Origin: Pseudoselenomonas ruminantium
GTDB lineage: Bacteria; Bacillota; Negativicutes; Selenomonadales; Selenomonadaceae
DNA: 38,117 bases
NCBI GenBank assembly: GCA_902781305.1
Contig: CACZIV010000015.1
Span: 1-38,117, forward strand
Direction of reading: 5' to 3'
Shown: positions 28,588-37,830 of the stretch, piece by piece
Numbering within the stretch: the stretch's first letter is position 1
Layout: every line of letters starts with the position of its first letter
The notes under the pieces: generated by a model
Told to the model about the DNA's origin: nothing
Database searches by the model: none
Seen by the model: only the letters and a program-made list of their open reading frames with translations
Program-made: the position numbers and the translations under genes

Positions 28588-28626
28588 AAAAAGCCTGTGA
28601 GAGTTTCGTACTTTCACAGGCTTTTT
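28588..28626. terminator. Bidirectional terminator between gloA and the acyltransferase
   Basis: AAAAAGCCTGTGA (28588-28600) and TCACAGGCTTTTT (28614-28626) form a perfect 13-bp stem with A and T runs on both sides, so it can end the + strand pfl operon and the convergent minus-strand gene. Confidence 0.95.
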
Positions 28627-29922: not shown

Positions 29923-31662
29923 ATGCAGCGCAATGGTATTTTGGTTATACAAAAGTATATGGAATACTTAGGCTCTACTATGGGCTTTATTGTTTCTCTC
30001 TATTTGGCCTCCATTGTAGATGGCATATTGGTCAGTCAGCTTATTGGTCCTGCGGCCTTTGCAGGGATTAATTTGACTATGCCGGTTTATTATGCCCGCA
30101 ATATCGTATTTTTTCTCTTGGTGGATGGTGGCTCGGTTCTTGCTGCACAGTATATTGGTGCCCATAATAAAGTTGCCTGTAACCAGGTGTTTAACCTGAC
30201 TATTGGCGGTGGGACAGTGGTCATGACTATTTTAGGCGTGGTGGGATTTTTATTTGCTGCGCCTTTAGCTGTAATGCTGGCAGGAGAAAGTTCTTTAACG
30301 GAACTGGTGAAGGCCTATCTGATTCCATTATGGCTGACCAGTCCATTGCTGTTACTGGCCAATGGTATGGCTGCTTATCTGCGTTTGTCGGGAGAACACA
30401 AGCTGTCTATTGCCGTACCCGTGGTTGCCAATATCTGCAATCTTGTATTCGATTATCTCTTTATTGCCATTTTCGGCTGGGGAATCGGCGGAGCTGGTTG
30501 GGCAACGGGGGCTGGTTATGCCTGTTCGCTATTTTTGTTATGGCCGTATTTTCAGCGTGAGAAACGGGATTGGTATTTTATCTCCTTAAAAGAAGTCAGT
30601 CCTGTACTTTTACGACGGATTGTGCAAATTGGTTTGCCAATGGCCATGATTCCCTTGGGGCTGGTAGTACGTCATTTTGCCATAAACAGTATTGTAATCG
30701 AGCAATTCGGGTATATCGGGGCGATATTGATTTCGCTTTGCAATGCGGGCCAGCTCTATGCATTGATGTTTGTAGATGGTGCTAGTACGGCGTTGGCAAA
30801 TGTTTGTGGTGCCCTGTATGGAGGCGGGGATATGACCGGTGTACGCTATGTTTTGCAGCGTGCCTTGCGGCTGGCCTTTGCCATCTGCCTGCTGGTTTTT
30901 GCCGGACTATTTTTCTATCCATGGGAATTTATGCACTTATATGGGGTAAATACAGGACTGATTAACGCGGATTTCGTGTTATATTTTAGGATCAGTCTGC
31001 TTTATATTTTGTTTTTACCTGCGGTGTTTATCCTGCGGGCGTTTTTTCAATCCACGCATCAGGAATGGGCAGCAACGTTATTTTCTGCGTTGGAGGGCGT
31101 TGTTCTGGTCGTGCCGCTATATTATCTATTGTCCCATAAAAGCCTTTTGTTGATGTGGGCGGCACCGGCTGCCGCAGCAGCGTTGTCTTTGGGATGGTTG
31201 TATGTTTACCTGCGGAAAAAAGCCCAAGCGCAAGGCTTGGATAGTTTCCTCATGTTAAAACAGGAAACAGCAGATAAGTTTCGGGAAGTAAGTATTTCGG
31301 CTACTGTACAGGAAGTTGCACAAGTGGTCTTGGCAGTAAACGATTTTTGCCAGCAAAATAAACGCTTCAGTTCACGTGAGGCCTATGCTGCACAATTGAC
31401 AGTAGAGGAATTAGGCGTGGTTATTGCTGAACATGGCGGCTTGGGGAAGCGTGCTCAGATTGATGTTCTGGTTCGCTTGCTGAAAGAACGGATTGTGATA
31501 ACGGTCAGAGATGATGGAAGGCCTTTTAATCCGGTAAAATATCTGGCCGGGCATGGCAAGGATTTTTCGGGGATATCGATGGTGCGCAAGCTGGCGGTTA
31601 AGATGGAATATACATCTATACTCGGTTTTAATACGACGATAGTTACAATTGGAAAGCGATGA
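29923..31662 (+). CDS. MATE-family transporter fused to a C-terminal RsbW-like HATPase domain
   Basis: A 579-residue fusion. Residues 1 to about 435 are a 12-helix MATE exporter (two MatE halves; opening FIVSLYLASIVDGILVSQLIGPAAFAGINL). Residues about 445-579 form a soluble domain like anti-sigma-factor kinases. It has an N-box region LTVEELGVVIAEHGG, a G1 motif VRDDGRPFNP and a G2-like FSGISMVRKLA. The N-box asparagine that binds magnesium in active kinases is a valine here, and the glycine-rich lid is altered, so the domain is probably not a normal kinase. It may bind a partner or nucleotide to gate or sense transport. The racemase-like gene overlaps its stop by 4 bases. Domain boundaries are approximate. 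Confidence 0.88.
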   Translation: MQRNGILVIQKYMEYLGSTMGFIVSLYLASIVDGILVSQLIGPAAFAGINLTMPVYYARNIVFFLLVDGGSVLAAQYIGAHNKVACNQVFNLTIGGGTVVMTILGVVGFLFAAPLAVMLAGESSLTELVKAYLIPLWLTSPLLLLANGMAAYLRLSGEHKLSIAVPVVANICNLVFDYLFIAIFGWGIGGAGWATGAGYACSLFLLWPYFQREKRDWYFISLKEVSPVLLRRIVQIGLPMAMIPLGLVVRHFAINSIVIEQFGYIGAILISLCNAGQLYALMFVDGASTALANVCGALYGGGDMTGVRYVLQRALRLAFAICLLVFAGLFFYPWEFMHLYGVNTGLINADFVLYFRISLLYILFLPAVFILRAFFQSTHQEWAATLFSALEGVVLVVPLYYLLSHKSLLLMWAAPAAAAALSLGWLYVYLRKKAQAQGLDSFLMLKQETADKFREVSISATVQEVAQVVLAVNDFCQQNKRFSSREAYAAQLTVEELGVVIAEHGGLGKRAQIDVLVRLLKERIVITVRDDGRPFNPVKYLAGHGKDFSGISMVRKLAVKMEYTSILGFNTTIVTIGKR

Positions 31663-32486
31663 GAAAAATGGATTACTGTTATCAACTATTTAACCCCAGC
31701 GGCAATGTTACGGCATTGATTTTAGGGTTGGAAAAAAATGGGCAGTTGCGCAAACGTGCCGCGCAAAAAATTATGGAAAAACATCCTGAAGTGGAGCAGG
31801 TAGGTTTTGTATCCTTGGATAAAAAAGACCCGCGCCTGCTGATGGCCGGCGGTGAGTTCTGCGGCAATGCCCTGCGGGCGGCAGCGTGCTACTATTTGGC
31901 AGGCCGGGCTGGTGAATTGTCGATGAAGGTTTCCGGCGCTCAGCCGCACTTAAAAGCAGGCAGCAGTAAAAAAGGCGAGTTTTATGCGCAGATTCCACTG
32001 GTTGAACGGCCAGAAGACATTGTACATAAGGGCAAGGGATTTTATCGGGTCAATATGCCCGGAATTGTGCAAATCGTCATGCCGTTGCAGAAAGAGCAGG
32101 AAAAAACGCTTTCAGAGGAGAATGTAAAAAAGAGAACCTTGGAGATTTTGCAGCAACAGCATTTGTTGGGCACACCTGCTGCCGGTGTGATGTTTTTGGT
32201 GAAAACAGAGAAAGGAAAGCGTATCTATCCCTGTGTACGCGTAGCGGCGTTGGGAACGCTGATTTGTGAGCAGGCTTGTGGCAGCGGTACAATGGCTGTG
32301 GGGCTGGTCGAAGCAGCAAAGACCGGCAGGGATGTAGATATTTCCCTGTTGCAGCCGTCCGGGCAAGTGATTCATGCGCAGGTTTTGCATACCGGAAAAC
32401 CGCTGCCGGAATGTCGGATTTTGGGAACCGTGAATGGTGATAACCGTAAGCGCTGGCTGCGTGATATTGGAATTTGGGGAAGGTGA
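31659..32486 (+). CDS. DapF-fold two-cysteine epimerase/racemase-like protein
   Basis: A 275-residue cytosolic protein with the diaminopimelate-epimerase fold. Both catalytic cysteines are present: Cys68 in GGEFCGNALRAA and Cys207 in EQACGSGTMAVG. The first motif lacks the usual GNG seen in housekeeping DapF, and overall similarity beyond the motifs looks weak. A specialised cofactor-independent racemase is therefore likelier than lysine-pathway DapF; DapF-like histidine racemases of opine metallophore pathways are one precedent. Its start overlaps the MATE stop (ATGA), implying the exporter may carry its product. An alternative start is 31668. Confidence 0.78.
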   Translation: MRKMDYCYQLFNPSGNVTALILGLEKNGQLRKRAAQKIMEKHPEVEQVGFVSLDKKDPRLLMAGGEFCGNALRAAACYYLAGRAGELSMKVSGAQPHLKAGSSKKGEFYAQIPLVERPEDIVHKGKGFYRVNMPGIVQIVMPLQKEQEKTLSEENVKKRTLEILQQQHLLGTPAAGVMFLVKTEKGKRIYPCVRVAALGTLICEQACGSGTMAVGLVEAAKTGRDVDISLLQPSGQVIHAQVLHTGKPLPECRILGTVNGDNRKRWLRDIGIWGR

Positions 32487-32490
32487 GCAT

Positions 32491-34662
32491 ATGAAAAAAA
32501 ATGGGAGTATTCGTCAGCAAGTGCAACGGTTGCTGTTCCTTTGCAGCGTGGTATCCTTGCTTTTGCTCGGCGGGATTGCCTTGTTGGGCATGATGGGGGC
32601 CAGGGAAAATTCCCGGCAGAGTGGTTATGAAATGGGCGAAGAAGCAGCCTTGACGGTCAGCAGTACACTTAGAACAGAAGCAGAAGAACGCATGCAGCTG
32701 CTGGCCTCGGAACGGGCTGCGCAAATCGGTTTGGAACTGCAGCGTATTGCTGACCGTACGGATCTTATTCGTAGTGAAATCAGTTGGATTTTTGAACATC
32801 CAGGGGATTATACCTTGCGGAGCATTTCGGAACCGCGCCGGGAAAATGCCGGAAAACTGGTGCCTCAGCTCGAATTTGCCGCAGGACTGGATCGTGGAGC
32901 ACTAGCTCAGGAGATTGGGCTGATGGCCAATTCGCAGGATATTATGTTACAGGTAGCCAGGCAAAATGGTGAAGGTACAGTGATTAGTGCCGCATCAAAA
33001 AATGGTTTTACCATTTCCGTGGATAGAGACTCTGCTGTACGTTTTACCACGCCGGATGCAGTGTCCCCTGCGCCTTTTGATGGTACCAGTCGTCCTTGGT
33101 ACAAATTGGCAGAGCAGACGGGAAAGGCTGTTTTTACCGATGTTTATGCAGACAGCTTTACGGGGGGGCTGCGAATTGCTCGTACGATGCCCTATCAAGT
33201 TAACGGAGATTTTGCTGGTGTTGTGGTCATATCCTCTTATCTGGAAGGTATCAGTCAGCTAGTGCTGAATGCCCAGGCTGAAACCTGCTTTGTGGTGGAT
33301 AAGAATGGGCAGCTGCTCTTTTTCAAAGACGAGGCAGGGATGCTCAAGAGCCATGTACAGCCGCAGATGGATTTGCGTACCATATCCAATGAGAGCATGG
33401 TAAAAGCAGTTTCCAATATGACTGAAGGAAAAATTGGTGCCTGTACCATAAGCATTGACGGCAAGGATTTTTATTTGGCGTATGCCCCCATCACGCAGAC
33501 CGGCTGGAGCTTTGCCGCTGCCTTGAATGCGGAAGATGTGCTTGCTACCGAAGCGAAAGCTCGTACGGATGTGTTGGCCATAGCTAAAGAAAATATTGAG
33601 GATATGGATGCCCATATGACCAAAGTAATTTTGGCTATGGCTGTGGTCATTGTGCTGATTATCCTCTTTGTCAGCTGGCAGGGCAGGCGTATGGGCGACC
33701 GTTTTGTTCATCCGATTTTGGACCTTTCCGATGGCGTGCGGGAGATAGCCAGCGGTAATCTGGACAAAAAACTGGATATCCGTACTGGGGATGAAATCGA
33801 ACATCTTTCTGTCTGTTTCAATGCCATGACAGATGAACTACAGAGCTACATGAAAAATCTTACCCGGATAACGGCTGAAAAAGAGCGAATTGCTACGGAG
33901 CTCAATGTCGCCACAAACATTCAGGAAAGCATGCTGCCCAGTATTTTCCCGCCTTTCCCCGGTTGTCCAGATATTGATATCCGAGCTACAATGCATGCGG
34001 CCAAAGAGGTCGGTGGTGATTTTTACGATTTTTATATGCTCGATGAAAACCATATCGTTGTGACCATTGCCGATGTTTCCGGTAAAGGCGTACCAGCGGC
34101 CCTCTTTATGGTTATTTCCAAGACTATCTTGAAAAATTTTGCTTTGACGATGACCGGAGAAGATGATTTGGCGGCCGTAGTCGCCTGCACCAATGACCAA
34201 CTGTGCCAGAACAATGATGCGATGATGTTTGTCACCGCCTTCGTGGGCATGTTGGATATTACTACCGGGAAATTTACTTATGTAAATGCCGGTCACAATC
34301 CGCCGTTGGTTTACCATCGCCGGGAAGGCAAGTTCTCCTATATGGATGTCAAGCGCAATTTTGTGTTAGGCGGCATGGATGAACTGACCTTCCAGCAGCA
34401 GGAAATCATGTTGGAACGGGGCGATAAACTGTTCTTGTATACAGATGGTGTTACCGAAGCGCTTAGCGAAGATGAAGAGCTTTATGGTGAAGAACGTCTG
34501 GAAAAATGCTTGAATGGTATGGATGTAGAACATACGGATCTAAGCGGTATTTTGGATACGGTGCAAAAATCCTTGGCTGCCCATGTACAAGAGGCCGAAC
34601 AATCCGATGATATTACCATGCTGGCTTTAGAATACAAGGATGCATGCGAAACGGAGGGATAA
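32491..34662 (+). CDS. Cache-HAMP-PP2C (SpoIIE/RsbU-type) receptor phosphatase 1
   Basis: A 723-residue transmembrane serine/threonine phosphatase. Order: membrane helix 13-36, extracytoplasmic double-Cache sensor about 40-375 (with RPWYKLA at 201-207), second helix 379-396, HAMP 397-450, short coiled coil, and PP2C-type phosphatase 495-715. Metal-binding aspartates are intact: Asp510 (VGGDFYDF), Asp528 (IADVSGKGVPA), Asp652 (YTDGVTEA), and Asp706/707 (QSDDITM). Such enzymes dephosphorylate STAS-domain antagonists in partner switching. It starts 4 bases after the racemase-like gene, with GGGGAAGGTGAG as ribosome site; the longer frame from 32434 overlaps that gene and is not supported. Confidence 0.93.
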   Translation: MKKNGSIRQQVQRLLFLCSVVSLLLLGGIALLGMMGARENSRQSGYEMGEEAALTVSSTLRTEAEERMQLLASERAAQIGLELQRIADRTDLIRSEISWIFEHPGDYTLRSISEPRRENAGKLVPQLEFAAGLDRGALAQEIGLMANSQDIMLQVARQNGEGTVISAASKNGFTISVDRDSAVRFTTPDAVSPAPFDGTSRPWYKLAEQTGKAVFTDVYADSFTGGLRIARTMPYQVNGDFAGVVVISSYLEGISQLVLNAQAETCFVVDKNGQLLFFKDEAGMLKSHVQPQMDLRTISNESMVKAVSNMTEGKIGACTISIDGKDFYLAYAPITQTGWSFAAALNAEDVLATEAKARTDVLAIAKENIEDMDAHMTKVILAMAVVIVLIILFVSWQGRRMGDRFVHPILDLSDGVREIASGNLDKKLDIRTGDEIEHLSVCFNAMTDELQSYMKNLTRITAEKERIATELNVATNIQESMLPSIFPPFPGCPDIDIRATMHAAKEVGGDFYDFYMLDENHIVVTIADVSGKGVPAALFMVISKTILKNFALTMTGEDDLAAVVACTNDQLCQNNDAMMFVTAFVGMLDITTGKFTYVNAGHNPPLVYHRREGKFSYMDVKRNFVLGGMDELTFQQQEIMLERGDKLFLYTDGVTEALSEDEELYGEERLEKCLNGMDVEHTDLSGILDTVQKSLAAHVQEAEQSDDITMLALEYKDACETEG

Positions 34663-34684
34663 TATGCAGGGTAGGTGATGGTTG

Positions 34685-36853
34685 ATGAAGCGGACAAGTA
34701 TTCGCAAGCAGTTACAAAGGCTATTGTTTCTTTGTAGTATAGTTTCCCTGTTTTTACTTGGCGGGATTGCCCTGCTGGGGATGATGGGGGCGAGGATAAA
34801 TTCCACCGAAAATGGCTATGAAATGGGTGCCAAGGCAGCTGAAACGGTTAGTGATACACTGAAACAGGAGGCTGAGGACCGTTTGCAGCTCCTGGCAGCA
34901 GAAAGAGCCAGCTATATTGGCCTGGAAATGCAGCGCATTGCTGACCGTACTGAACTGATCCGCAAGGAAATGAACTGGATTTTAAGCCATGAGAGCGAGT
35001 ATCCACAGCGCAGCATAGCGGAACCAAACAGAGAAAATGCAGGGAAATTTGTTCCGCAACTGGAATTTGCCGCAGGTCTGAATCGGGAGGCTTTAGCACA
35101 TGAAATCGGACTGACGGCCAATATACAGGACGTGATGATGCAAGTGGCCATGATGAATGGCGAAGATACGATTATCAGTGCAGCCTCAAAGAATGGTTTT
35201 ACGATAACCGTTGATACGAATTCTGCTGAACGTTTTACAGCACCGGAAGATGCAAAGCCCCGCTACTTTGACGGCACCGGCCGCCCATGGTACAAATTGG
35301 CCAAAGAACAGGGGAAACTCACGTTTACCAATGTTTATATGGCCAAATTTGCGCACAAATTAAGCATTGCCTGTACAGTACCGTATCAGGCACAGAATGA
35401 ATTTGCCGGCGTTGTGGCCATGTCGACCTCGTTGGATAAAATAAGTCAGCTGGTGTTGAATACGCAGGCAGAAACCTGTTTTGTCGTGGATAATAAAGGT
35501 CAGATGCTTTTATACAAAGATGATACGGGTATCATTAAAGAGCAACTGCAAACGGATAGGGGAAATAATACACTGTCCAATGCAGGCATAGAAACAGCTG
35601 TCCATAAAATGACGGCAGGGCAAAGTGGTGTCTGCAACATAACGATTGATGGGAAGAATTTTTATTTGGCCTATGCACCCATCAAACAGACCGGTTGGAG
35701 CTTTGCCGCAGCACTGGATGCAGAAGATGTATTGGCTACAGAAACCAAGACTCGTACGGATGTGTTGGCTTTGGCCAAAAAAAACGTTGAGGCTATGGAT
35801 GCCCATATGACCAAGGTGATTTTGGTCATGGCTGTAGTCATTGCGCTGATCATTTTTGTGGTTAGTTGGCAGGGGCAGCGCATGAGTGAGCGTTTGGTCC
35901 GGCCCATTTTAAATCTTGCTGACGGCGTGCGGGAGATTGCTAACGGCAATCTGGATAAAAAGCTCTCTATTCATACCGGTGATGAAATAGAGCAATTGGC
36001 GGACAGCTTCAATGTGATGACCGCTGAACTGCAAACCTATATGCGTAATCTTACGCGGGAAACGGTGGAAAAAGAACGTATTGCCACGGAGTTGAATGTG
36101 GCAAATAGAATTCAGGAAAGCATGCTGCCCAATATCTTTCCGCCATTTCCTGAACGCAGTGATTTTGACATTTATGCCATCATGCATGCGGCGAAGGAAG
36201 TGGGCGGAGATTTCTACGATTTTTATCTGCTGGATGATAATCATTTGATGATTACCATAGCGGATGTTTCCGGCAAAGGTGTGCCCGCTGCGCTCTTTAT
36301 GGTTATATCGAAAACGATTTTGAAAAATTTTGCCATGACGATGACTGGAAACGATGATTTGGCGGCAGTGGTATCTTGTACGAACGATCAGCTGTGCCAA
36401 AACAATGATGCGATGATGTTTGTTACCGCTTTTGTGGGGCTGCTCGATATTCAGACGGGGAAATTTGTTTATGTCAATGCCGGGCATAATCCGCCATTAG
36501 TTTATCGTCATAAGACGCAGCAATTTTCCTATATGGAAGTCAAACGCAATTTTGTCTTAGGGGGTATGGATGAATTGGATTATCAGGCGCAGGAAATGAT
36601 GCTGGAGCCTGATGATAAACTGTTTTTCTATACCGATGGGGTTACGGAGGCCTTGAATGAAGCAGAAGAACTTTATGGTGAAGAACGCTTGCTGACATGT
36701 TTGAATGAGGCAGGTGCAGAGCAGCTTGACTTGAAAGGATTGCTGACTGCTGTGCAAAAATCATTGGCGGCTCATGTGGGTGAGGCTGAGCAATCAGATG
36801 ATATCACCATGATGGTTTTGGATTATCAAGGCAAACAGACTGGGGAGGTGTAA
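34685..36853 (+). CDS. Cache-HAMP-PP2C receptor phosphatase 2 (paralog)
   Basis: A 722-residue paralog of the preceding gene with the same layout, and strong identity in the first membrane helix (LLFLCSIVSLFLLGGIALL), HAMP and phosphatase domains. The sensor region is the most diverged part, pointing to a different ligand. All PP2C motifs persist (VGGDFYDF, IADVSGKGVPAALF, YTDGVTEA, SDDITMM). It starts 22 bases after its sister with GGTAGGTGATGG upstream. Duplication in tandem and sensor divergence suggest two inputs onto one output. Confidence 0.93.
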   Translation: MKRTSIRKQLQRLLFLCSIVSLFLLGGIALLGMMGARINSTENGYEMGAKAAETVSDTLKQEAEDRLQLLAAERASYIGLEMQRIADRTELIRKEMNWILSHESEYPQRSIAEPNRENAGKFVPQLEFAAGLNREALAHEIGLTANIQDVMMQVAMMNGEDTIISAASKNGFTITVDTNSAERFTAPEDAKPRYFDGTGRPWYKLAKEQGKLTFTNVYMAKFAHKLSIACTVPYQAQNEFAGVVAMSTSLDKISQLVLNTQAETCFVVDNKGQMLLYKDDTGIIKEQLQTDRGNNTLSNAGIETAVHKMTAGQSGVCNITIDGKNFYLAYAPIKQTGWSFAAALDAEDVLATETKTRTDVLALAKKNVEAMDAHMTKVILVMAVVIALIIFVVSWQGQRMSERLVRPILNLADGVREIANGNLDKKLSIHTGDEIEQLADSFNVMTAELQTYMRNLTRETVEKERIATELNVANRIQESMLPNIFPPFPERSDFDIYAIMHAAKEVGGDFYDFYLLDDNHLMITIADVSGKGVPAALFMVISKTILKNFAMTMTGNDDLAAVVSCTNDQLCQNNDAMMFVTAFVGLLDIQTGKFVYVNAGHNPPLVYRHKTQQFSYMEVKRNFVLGGMDELDYQAQEMMLEPDDKLFFYTDGVTEALNEAEELYGEERLLTCLNEAGAEQLDLKGLLTAVQKSLAAHVGEAEQSDDITMMVLDYQGKQTGEV

Positions 36854-36856
36854 GGC

Positions 36857-37282
36857 GTGACAAACGCTGAAATAAAAAAATTGGTCTTGGAGGCTAAAGT
36901 AGAAAATCTTGTCGCAGTGAATGAATTTGTGAACGAAATTTTACAGCCTTTAAATTGTTCCATGAAAATCCAGATGCAGCTGGAACTGGCTGTAGAGGAA
37001 ATCTTTGTCAATATTGCCAACTATGCTTATGGGGAGAGCACGGGCAAGGCATTTATAACGGGCAGGGTTTTGGAAAATCCCCTGCGCTTGGAATTGGTGT
37101 TTATGGATGAAGGGACTCCTTACAATCCTCTGGCGCGCAAGGACCCGGATTTGGAACAGAAAATGGAAGACCGTGCCATTGGCGGACTCGGGATATATCT
37201 GGTCAAAAAAAATGTAGAAGAAATAGCGTATTCCTACCAAGAGGGAAAAAATGTTCTTACCTTATGCAAACATATCCAGTGA
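36857..37282 (+). CDS. RsbW/SpoIIAB-like serine kinase (anti-sigma regulatory factor family)
   Basis: A 141-residue stand-alone GHKL ATPase. The N-box is complete with its asparagine (LAVEEIFVNIANYAYG, Asn52). The G1 motif is MDEGTPYNP and the G2 motif is GGLGIYLVKK, so nucleotide binding should be intact, unlike in the MATE-fused copy. The start is GTG after GGGGAGGTG, 3 bases past the PP2C stop. In known systems such a kinase phosphorylates a STAS protein and binds a sigma factor or other target; neither is encoded in the window. A weak terminator follows at 37290. Confidence 0.9.
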   Translation: MTNAEIKKLVLEAKVENLVAVNEFVNEILQPLNCSMKIQMQLELAVEEIFVNIANYAYGESTGKAFITGRVLENPLRLELVFMDEGTPYNPLARKDPDLEQKMEDRAIGGLGIYLVKKNVEEIAYSYQEGKNVLTLCKHIQ

Positions 37283-37289
37283 GATAAGA

Positions 37290-37313
37290 CCTTGCCCCTG
37301 GCAAGGCCTTTCC
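37290..37313 (+). terminator. Weak terminator after the partner-switching operon
   Basis: CCTTGCC (37290-37296) and GGCAAGG (37300-37306) form a short GC-rich hairpin followed only by CCTTTCC. Confidence 0.5.
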
Positions 37314-37353: not shown

Positions 37354-37830
37354 ATGCAGAAGCGCAGACTTATTATAGGTGGGATTCTCGGCCTGGTTTT
37401 GGCTGGGGGAGGTGTGTTTTGGCTTAACACATCTTCAAATGTGCCTGCTCAGCAGCAGATAACAGAAACCACGGTGGCTACCCGGGCGGAAAATGTCCCC
37501 AATCCCGATAAGCTGACACCGCCCCAAGCGGCTCAGCGGCAGGAAAAACCAGCGGTAAAGCCCATAAAAGATGTTTTTGTCTACAGTCTTGAAGGTGAGC
37601 AGGTCTTTATTGTGGCCGGCTCGGTGACAGCGGATAAGAAAAATCACCAATGGCAGGCGCAGATAAAAAACGTCAACCGTAAAGGACAGGCACAACCGGT
37701 ACAGTCCGTGATGTTTAAGCAGGAGGGCAATCAGATTCTGACCTGTAATGCGGACGGCAAATGGCGTAATATTGATGAAATGGACAAGACAATTTTTAAT
37801 AAAGTTGTCGATATTTCGGGGACGTATTGA
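37354..37830 (+). CDS. Membrane-anchored hypothetical protein
   Basis: A 158-residue protein with one N-terminal hydrophobic segment (about residues 6-25, LIIGGILGLVLAGGGVFWL), a Pro/Gln/Ala-rich linker to about residue 70, and a small C-terminal domain (VFVYSLEGEQVFIVAGSV). I do not recognise its family; the last part looks like a small beta domain. The ATG follows GCGGAGGTG. A possible promoter is TTGCCC (37292-37297) with TATAAT (37316-37321) at an 18-base spacing, overlapping the previous terminator. Confidence 0.7.
   Translation: MQKRRLIIGGILGLVLAGGGVFWLNTSSNVPAQQQITETTVATRAENVPNPDKLTPPQAAQRQEKPAVKPIKDVFVYSLEGEQVFIVAGSVTADKKNHQWQAQIKNVNRKGQAQPVQSVMFKQEGNQILTCNADGKWRNIDEMDKTIFNKVVDISGTY

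Follow-up and report, generated by a model that had tools for sequence, protein, structure and literature searches.

The classical partner-switching systems, RsbU/V/W and SpoIIAA/AB, act on sigma factors. The other described outputs that we found are secretion and cyclic-di-GMP synthesis. The SiaABCD system of Pseudomonas aeruginosa has a membrane HAMP-PP2C phosphatase, a kinase and a STAS-like protein with a diguanylate cyclase as the output (PMC7647112), the Btr proteins of Bordetella act on type III secretion, and STAS domains occur in SulP/SLC26 transporters (both PMC8256260). A transporter carrying an RsbW-like half would be a different output. The window analyzed here, the whole 38,117-nucleotide stretch of contig CACZIV010000015.1 (C15) of Pseudoselenomonas ruminantium (assembly GCA_902781305.1; 2.79 Mb in 121 contigs, 88.6% complete), contains on the + strand at positions 29923–37282 a five-gene operon that encodes a MATE exporter with a C-terminal RsbW-like HATPase_c_2 domain, a racemase-like enzyme, two Cache-HAMP-PP2C phosphatases and an RsbW-like serine kinase. 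We propose that this operon belongs to a partner-switching system whose client is the transporter itself, in which a STAS protein would bind to the pseudokinase tail of the exporter and gate the export of an amino-acid-derived product, a reading that we regard as evenly poised on the sequence evidence.

The system resembles RsbU/RsbV/RsbW of the Bacillus sigma-B pathway and SpoIIAA/SpoIIAB in having a PP2C phosphatase, an RsbW-like kinase with an intact N-box and a single-domain STAS protein with the serine motif. The window itself supplies the SpoIIE/RsbU-type PP2C with its acidic motifs and the RsbW-like kinase with intact ATP-binding motifs. It differs in that the operons examined contain no sigma factor and include biosynthetic enzymes, that the MATE exporter carries a fused RsbW-like domain and that the STAS gene is unlinked in this genome. 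The likeness to SiaABCD is in the set of signaling proteins, whereas the candidate client here is a transporter (PMC7647112). PMC8256260 presents BtrU/BtrV/BtrW as separate partner-switching proteins acting on secretion, unlike the exporter here that carries the RsbW-like domain, and describes SulP/SLC26 transporters with a fused STAS domain, one partner of the STAS/anti-sigma pair. Here the transporter bears the RsbW-like partner instead, and STAS is a protein of its own alongside a kinase and phosphatases. In the open-licence literature, which is not all that is in print, no account of MATE-HATPase fusions within partner-switching operons was found.

The exporter (29923–31662) has a MATE part at about residues 1–440 and a HATPase_c_2 domain at about residues 450–577. 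Pfam MatE matches it with 80.6 bits in two stretches, which represent the two MatE repeats, and HATPase_c_2 scores 34.0 bits against the Pfam cut-off of 27.4, while the protein stays below the NCBIfam TIGR00797 cut-off (101.2 of 147.4 bits). Its identity to Selenomonas ruminantium records is 95% (RUG13114), 90% (ATCC 12561), 63% (S137) and 61% (SIG242). Alignment and motif comparison show that the N-box asparagine of the fused domain is replaced by valine, likewise in two relatives (G003 and G006). This asparagine is kept in all 13 free RsbW-like domains versus 13 of the 49 MATE-fused domains, the other 36 having lost it. Because the residue is kept in free kinases and mostly lost in fusions, the fused tail is read as a STAS docking site, and in the window the fused domain appears to be a pseudokinase that serves for docking, not a second kinase. 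The initial annotation, which spoke of a transporter with a kinase-like domain, was correct as to the presence of the domain, and its kinase-like character is what the lost asparagine puts in doubt.

A survey places this arrangement far beyond a single genome. A profile of 12 MATE-HATPases was searched against 200 Negativicutes genomes with at most six candidates scored per genome, giving at least 37 full-length fusions, a lower bound. A STAS, PP2C or RsbW-like gene, or the gene of a 206-residue protein described below, lies within 8 kb of 26 of the 37 fusions and of none of 34 plain MATE genes. Near 30 of the 37 fusions (within 8 kb) and 7 of the 34 plain MATEs there are enzymes that join or modify amino acids, and both kinds of gene are found within 8 kb of 26 fusions. 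The Fisher p values, uncorrected for relatedness, are 5e-11 for partner switching and 3e-7 for the enzymes. The 37 fusions span 10 genera, 8 of which supply the 26 with partner-switching genes. Among 299 genomes of the phylum, a set that includes class members, five further fusions lay outside the class; they belong to four genomes, and each has a PP2C gene nearby. The 34 controls consist of 14 plain MATEs of other genomes on the list and 20 of genomes that also bear fusions; two regions without a MATE frame (L131 and L185) were dropped and two others (L191 and L192) contributed two rows each, and L175, a contig-edge fragment of a fusion, was left out. Domain labels in the survey came from profiles built on these loci, with 20 representative proteins checked against Pfam; Pfam runs on survey proteins covered 30 proteins in all, some of them without a match.

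Three other loci of the same genome were also noted. On contig C9 (L066:2-9455), a Cache-PP2C, a STAS protein, a STAS-condensation fusion, an A-PCP-C nonribosomal peptide synthetase (NRPS) and a MATE-HATPase follow one another with short gaps, a layout with close copies in G003, G020 and G004 and similar versions in other genera. On contig C3 (L092:5195-9404), a STAS gene, a sodium:dicarboxylate-type symporter and a Cache-HAMP-PP2C form one run; the N-terminus of the symporter is weakly HATPase-like (20 bits with our own profile), and the run may represent a second class of transporter associated with a partner-switching operon. On contig C59 (L181), the neighbour of a plain MATE is an NRPS-type gene whose condensation domain has HHxxxDG, and there are no partner-switching genes; six other control rows show this arrangement too.

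Within the window the five genes are tightly packed, with gaps of 3 to 22 bases as first described. The exporter gene overlaps that of the racemase-like enzyme (275 residues, 31659–32486) by 4 bases. The first phosphatase, PP2C-a (723 residues, 32491–34662), begins after a gap of 4 with a ggaaggtgag stretch in the region 5' of its start, and an alternative ATG at 32434 would make it overlap the racemase-like gene. PP2C-b (722 residues, 34685–36853) follows after a gap of 22 and the RsbW-like kinase gene (141 residues, 36857–37282), which starts with GTG, after a gap of 3. A consensus scan scored 19 sites as terminator-like, where shuffled sequence gave 11.7 on average (standard deviation 4.1). 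Those within the operon are weak and all in coding sequence, and neither a strong terminator nor a strong promoter appears inside it. The strongest hairpin, of 17 pairs (28588–28626, + strand), is upstream and separated from the operon start by an opposite-strand acyltransferase-like gene, a weak one (37290–37306, + strand) comes after the last gene, and the two top-ranking promoter-like sites, at 37292 and 37872, lie downstream. The five genes are a real compact operon that is kept in relatives, although consensus scans do not amount to proof of cotranscription.

Both phosphatases have dCache_1, HAMP and SpoIIE/PP2C domains in Pfam (SpoIIE/PP2C at 162 and 163 bits) and both contain GGDFYD, DVSGKG, DGVTEA and QSDDIT, the acidic motifs of PP2C. 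PP2C-a and PP2C-b are about 70% identical. Because the Cache domains differ at the presumed ligand position when aligned to PctA, they suggest two different inputs, and it is plausible that Cache-domain ligands set the phosphorylation of STAS. The kinase matches HATPase_c_2 with 73.2 bits and PDB RsbW 6m36 with an E value of 4.5e-4, is below the NCBIfam RsbW cut-offs and has intact N-box, G1 and G2-like motifs (EEIFVNIANYAY, DEGTPYNP and GGLGI), as befits a putative kinase. CahR-type receptors of autoinducer-2 have a dCache_1 domain with R126, W128, Y144, D146 and D173 of PctA (PMC9540692). PP2C-a has four of the five residues, with serine at the D173 position, and PP2C-b has three, with alanine at D146 and serine at D173, and neither was assigned to this type.

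No STAS gene is present in the window operon. Six STAS matches were found genome-wide, and the best candidate switch is a 99-residue protein on contig C10 with the motif YVASAGLR, whose orthologues (86–88%) lie within the same operon as the other parts in G004, G017, G010 and G011. A strict pattern finds the serine motif in 35 of 39 STAS domains, the C10 protein being counted through identical relatives. The 'self-contained circuit' of the initial annotation does not hold here: the window contains part of a split system, and the STAS part is elsewhere, on C10.

The C10 STAS gene lies between the genes of a condensation-domain protein and of a 206-residue protein, and this trio stands beside genes that we take from their sequences to be ribF, truB and DHH. 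The condensation-like protein matches Condensation with 77.5 bits and shows a C-terminal match to a cyclic-nucleotide-monophosphate-binding (cNMP-binding) domain of 18.8 bits, below cut-off. It is degenerate in lacking the condensation-domain motif HHxxxDG, and its structure model was not used (mean predicted local distance difference test, pLDDT, 40.5). The 206-residue protein probably has an RsbW fold, judging from its structure model (pLDDT 68.6): the top 13 Foldseek matches are all SpoIIAB, RsbW or anti-SigF proteins, the best with an E value of 2e-3 and none at or below 1e-3, and a profile comparison gave no support for that fold (hhalign probability 1.4%). The trio is found by ribF in G003, G006, G020, G016 and G007 as well. 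In G010 and G011, the ribF/truB/DHH site holds a MATE-HATPase, a racemase, a PP2C fused to RsbW, STAS and a homologue of the 206-residue protein, and in G004 and G017 a MATE-HATPase, PP2C, RsbW, the condensation-like protein, STAS and the 206-residue protein are encoded in one run. In G013, only the STAS gene and that of the 206-residue protein are placed between the acyltransferase-like gene and a gene for a 158-residue protein, the flanks of the window operon. As the C10/ribF and window sites swap contents among relatives, each of these two places on the chromosome carries exchangeable parts of a single system.

Two other identities were considered for these loci and set aside. The best NCBIfam match of both phosphatases is SiaA, at 82.4 and 100.7 bits against a cut-off of 700. 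A diguanylate cyclase is absent from the window operon and the C10 locus: there is no GGDEF match in the five window proteins, the condensation-like protein or the 206-residue protein, and the 99-residue STAS protein is too short for one. Membership in SiaABCD was rejected on these grounds. A PADLOC search for anti-phage defence gave no match for six of seven proteins and a single weak match of 19.3 bits to a TIR effector model in the C-terminal part of the condensation-like protein, which was not taken as evidence.

The five genes occur in the same order in G003 and G006, and the last four are present in G016, whose contig begins inside the racemase gene. The core of MATE-HATPase, PP2C and RsbW occurs together at about 57–73% identity in G004, G017, G010 and G011; relatives thus do not keep these three genes in separate places, the observation that would have spoken against a single system. 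The proposal that all five genes form one system holds for this core and less well for the racemase, which is absent from G004 and G017; in L122 and L123, which have the window layout of MATE-HATPase, Cache-PP2C and RsbW, a GNAT enzyme stands in its place. The 206-residue protein is present in 12 of 22 genomes of the genus, and all 12 have a locus of the MATE-HATPase and Cache-PP2C type (the window, L049–L054, L122, L123, L170, L175 and, with the MATE gene off the contig edge, L055 of G016). RsbW at 57% identity or more is found in 11 of the 22 genomes, all among these 12, and weaker RsbW matches (40–50%) occur in five further genomes. Of the ten genomes left, G002 carries another type of MATE-HATPase (STAS-condensation, L174), G001 has a broken long match, and the rest have only partial MATE matches among the matches listed.

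The enzyme slot is exchangeable, and the racemase is one of its occupants. Pfam confirms, beside MATE-HATPases, NRPS A-PCP-C and STAS-condensation fusions as well as ATP-grasp (L060, L068, L117), GH3 (L063, L107, L168), GCS2 (L164) and GNAT (L122) enzymes; the GCS2-like label of L165 and L166 rests on a two-sequence profile, and the L166 protein has no Pfam match. The protein in the window had been called a DapF-fold enzyme, which is right in a broad sense only. It has no Pfam match at an E value of 0.01, PF01678 included, and its nearest NCBIfam models are CntK, whose equivalog cut-off of 300 bits it misses with 78.8, and HisR, whose cut-off of 400 it misses with 65.7. An identity as DapF was rejected; the genome's own DapF is likely the 312-residue frame on contig C4 that contains two PF01678 halves. 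Histidine racemases of solved structure, 9cr1 and 9cr6, are matched with an E value of 3.1e-44 by a profile of seven relatives. Both catalytic cysteines (C68 and C207) and the HisR-type glutamate (E66) are kept. Of the catalytic cysteines and the proposed histidine-binding residues given in PMC11602996, C68, C207, N16, E66, G69, N70, E204 and S209 align with C67, C209, N18, E65, G68, N69, E206 and S211 of HisR, the sole exception among the binding residues being Ala210, which is glycine here. With CntK and HisR the protein shares the fold family, two catalytic cysteines, a glutamate before FCGNA and the substrate-binding asparagine and glutamate; unlike them it scores under both NCBIfam cut-offs, and its operon has no CntL, CntM or ABC importer genes and is linked instead to a MATE exporter and partner switching. 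The enzyme resembles histidine racemases, and histidine racemase activity is putative.

Several unassigned or fused proteins were also seen in MATE-HATPase loci. One kind of protein of about 450 residues without a Pfam match stands beside MATE-HATPases in L107:9804-11147 and L119:6566-7954, and a second kind of that size, also without a match, in L163:6201-7559 and L164:10135-11493. In L118:1499-2497, an RsbW-like domain is fused to DJ-1/PfpI in a cluster of MATE-HATPase, GNAT, PP2C and STAS genes. A Glycosyltransferase-2 domain fused to a GH3-type acyl-amide ligase is encoded near MATE-HATPase and STAS genes in L107:11155-13794 and L063:2246-4822.

From the linkage and co-occurrence of these parts we infer the gating and the exported product as follows. 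External ligands would bind the two Cache domains and change PP2C activity, the PP2C and RsbW proteins would jointly set the phosphorylation of the STAS serine, and one form of STAS would dock on the pseudokinase tail of the exporter, as RsbV does on RsbW, to open or close export; the sequence does not tell which of the two. The adjoining enzyme, racemase-like here and NRPS or condensation, ATP-grasp, GH3, glutamate-cysteine-ligase-like or GNAT elsewhere, would help to make the exported compound, which is probably amino-acid-derived. Direct contact between the parts is supported by the PP2C-RsbW fusions of G010 and G011 and by the STAS-condensation fusions. More tentatively, and with somewhat less than even confidence, these exporters may form an undescribed class, MATE proteins with their own RsbW-like and often pseudokinase tail as the STAS client, in which Cache-PP2C ligands directly gate export. 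Such Cache domains could in turn read the exported molecule as a signal.

A number of observations weigh against this proposal. No recognized partner-switching gene lies within 8 kb of 11 of the 37 fusions; ATP-grasp enzymes accompany three of these (L060, L068 and L117) and a condensation-domain gene one (L115), which leaves seven without either (L064 on the genome's own contig C60, L114, L120, L062 and L124–L126). The tail is not recognized by the HATPase profile in five of the seven (L062, L120 and L124–L126), and some of the contigs are short. The 37 loci cannot be counted as phylogenetically independent, and they include most of the 12 profile sequences. Enzyme linkage is not unique to the fusions, since seven of the 34 plain MATEs are likewise close to NRPS genes, and distant homologues of the racemase (31–35%) occur in four genomes without such neighbours. 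The fused domains of the close relatives G004, G017, G010 and G011 retain the N-box asparagine, so that pseudokinase is not a general label for these tails.

That retention matters for another explanation, in which the exporter is an input: it would sense the flux or availability of its substrate, and its HATPase tail would phosphorylate or sequester STAS so that transport reports to the circuit. Transporters serve as co-sensors in other systems, and the four exporters just named, which are of the window type, are among the 13 fused domains that have the asparagine. Its loss from the remaining fused domains, the window's included, against its presence in every free domain, and the dedicated Cache sensors and kinase already encoded in the operon make this account improbable. 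It is also conceivable, though we think it rather unlikely, that the circuit controls transcription, with STAS, RsbW and the 206-residue or condensation/cNMP-like protein acting on a sigma factor or other regulator and the MATE tail being a titrating sponge or relic in an operon that is merely co-regulated. The classical systems act on sigma factors, the 206-residue protein with its probable RsbW fold could be a second client, and a further point in favour is the weak cNMP-binding match in the condensation-like protein. A sigma-factor output, which the initial annotation had also offered, is nevertheless unsupported: no factor of the SigB/F/G type exceeds its family cut-off in the incomplete assembly (nine are sub-threshold), which is weak evidence as 13 of 14 control genomes also have none above it. 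The recurring covalent fusion of an RsbW-like domain with an exporter would, moreover, be left unexplained.

A multidrug MATE, a racemase and a signaling set might also share the operon by chance. The absence of the racemase from G004 and G017 would fit such ordinary neighbours, and the gene at 37354 together with the upstream acyltransferase-like gene marks a site of changing contents. The survey contrast in partner-switching genes between fusions and plain MATEs, and the strict co-occurrence of often unlinked parts, disfavour this explanation, which we consider very improbable. If transporter gating by partner switching is correct, extracellular ligands would control small-molecule export quickly and post-translationally, and the recurrence of the pattern with other amino-acid enzymes in relatives suggests a means of export control that has been little noticed in bacteria. 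The enzyme slot is in addition a marker of uncharacterized biosynthetic operons in rumen and gut Negativicutes, for which few small-molecule pathways have been reported.

Directly after the operon, positions 37354–37830 of the window encode the 158-residue protein, which has one probable membrane helix. Its gene is also present at this site in G003, G006, G013 and G017, whichever part of the system stands there.

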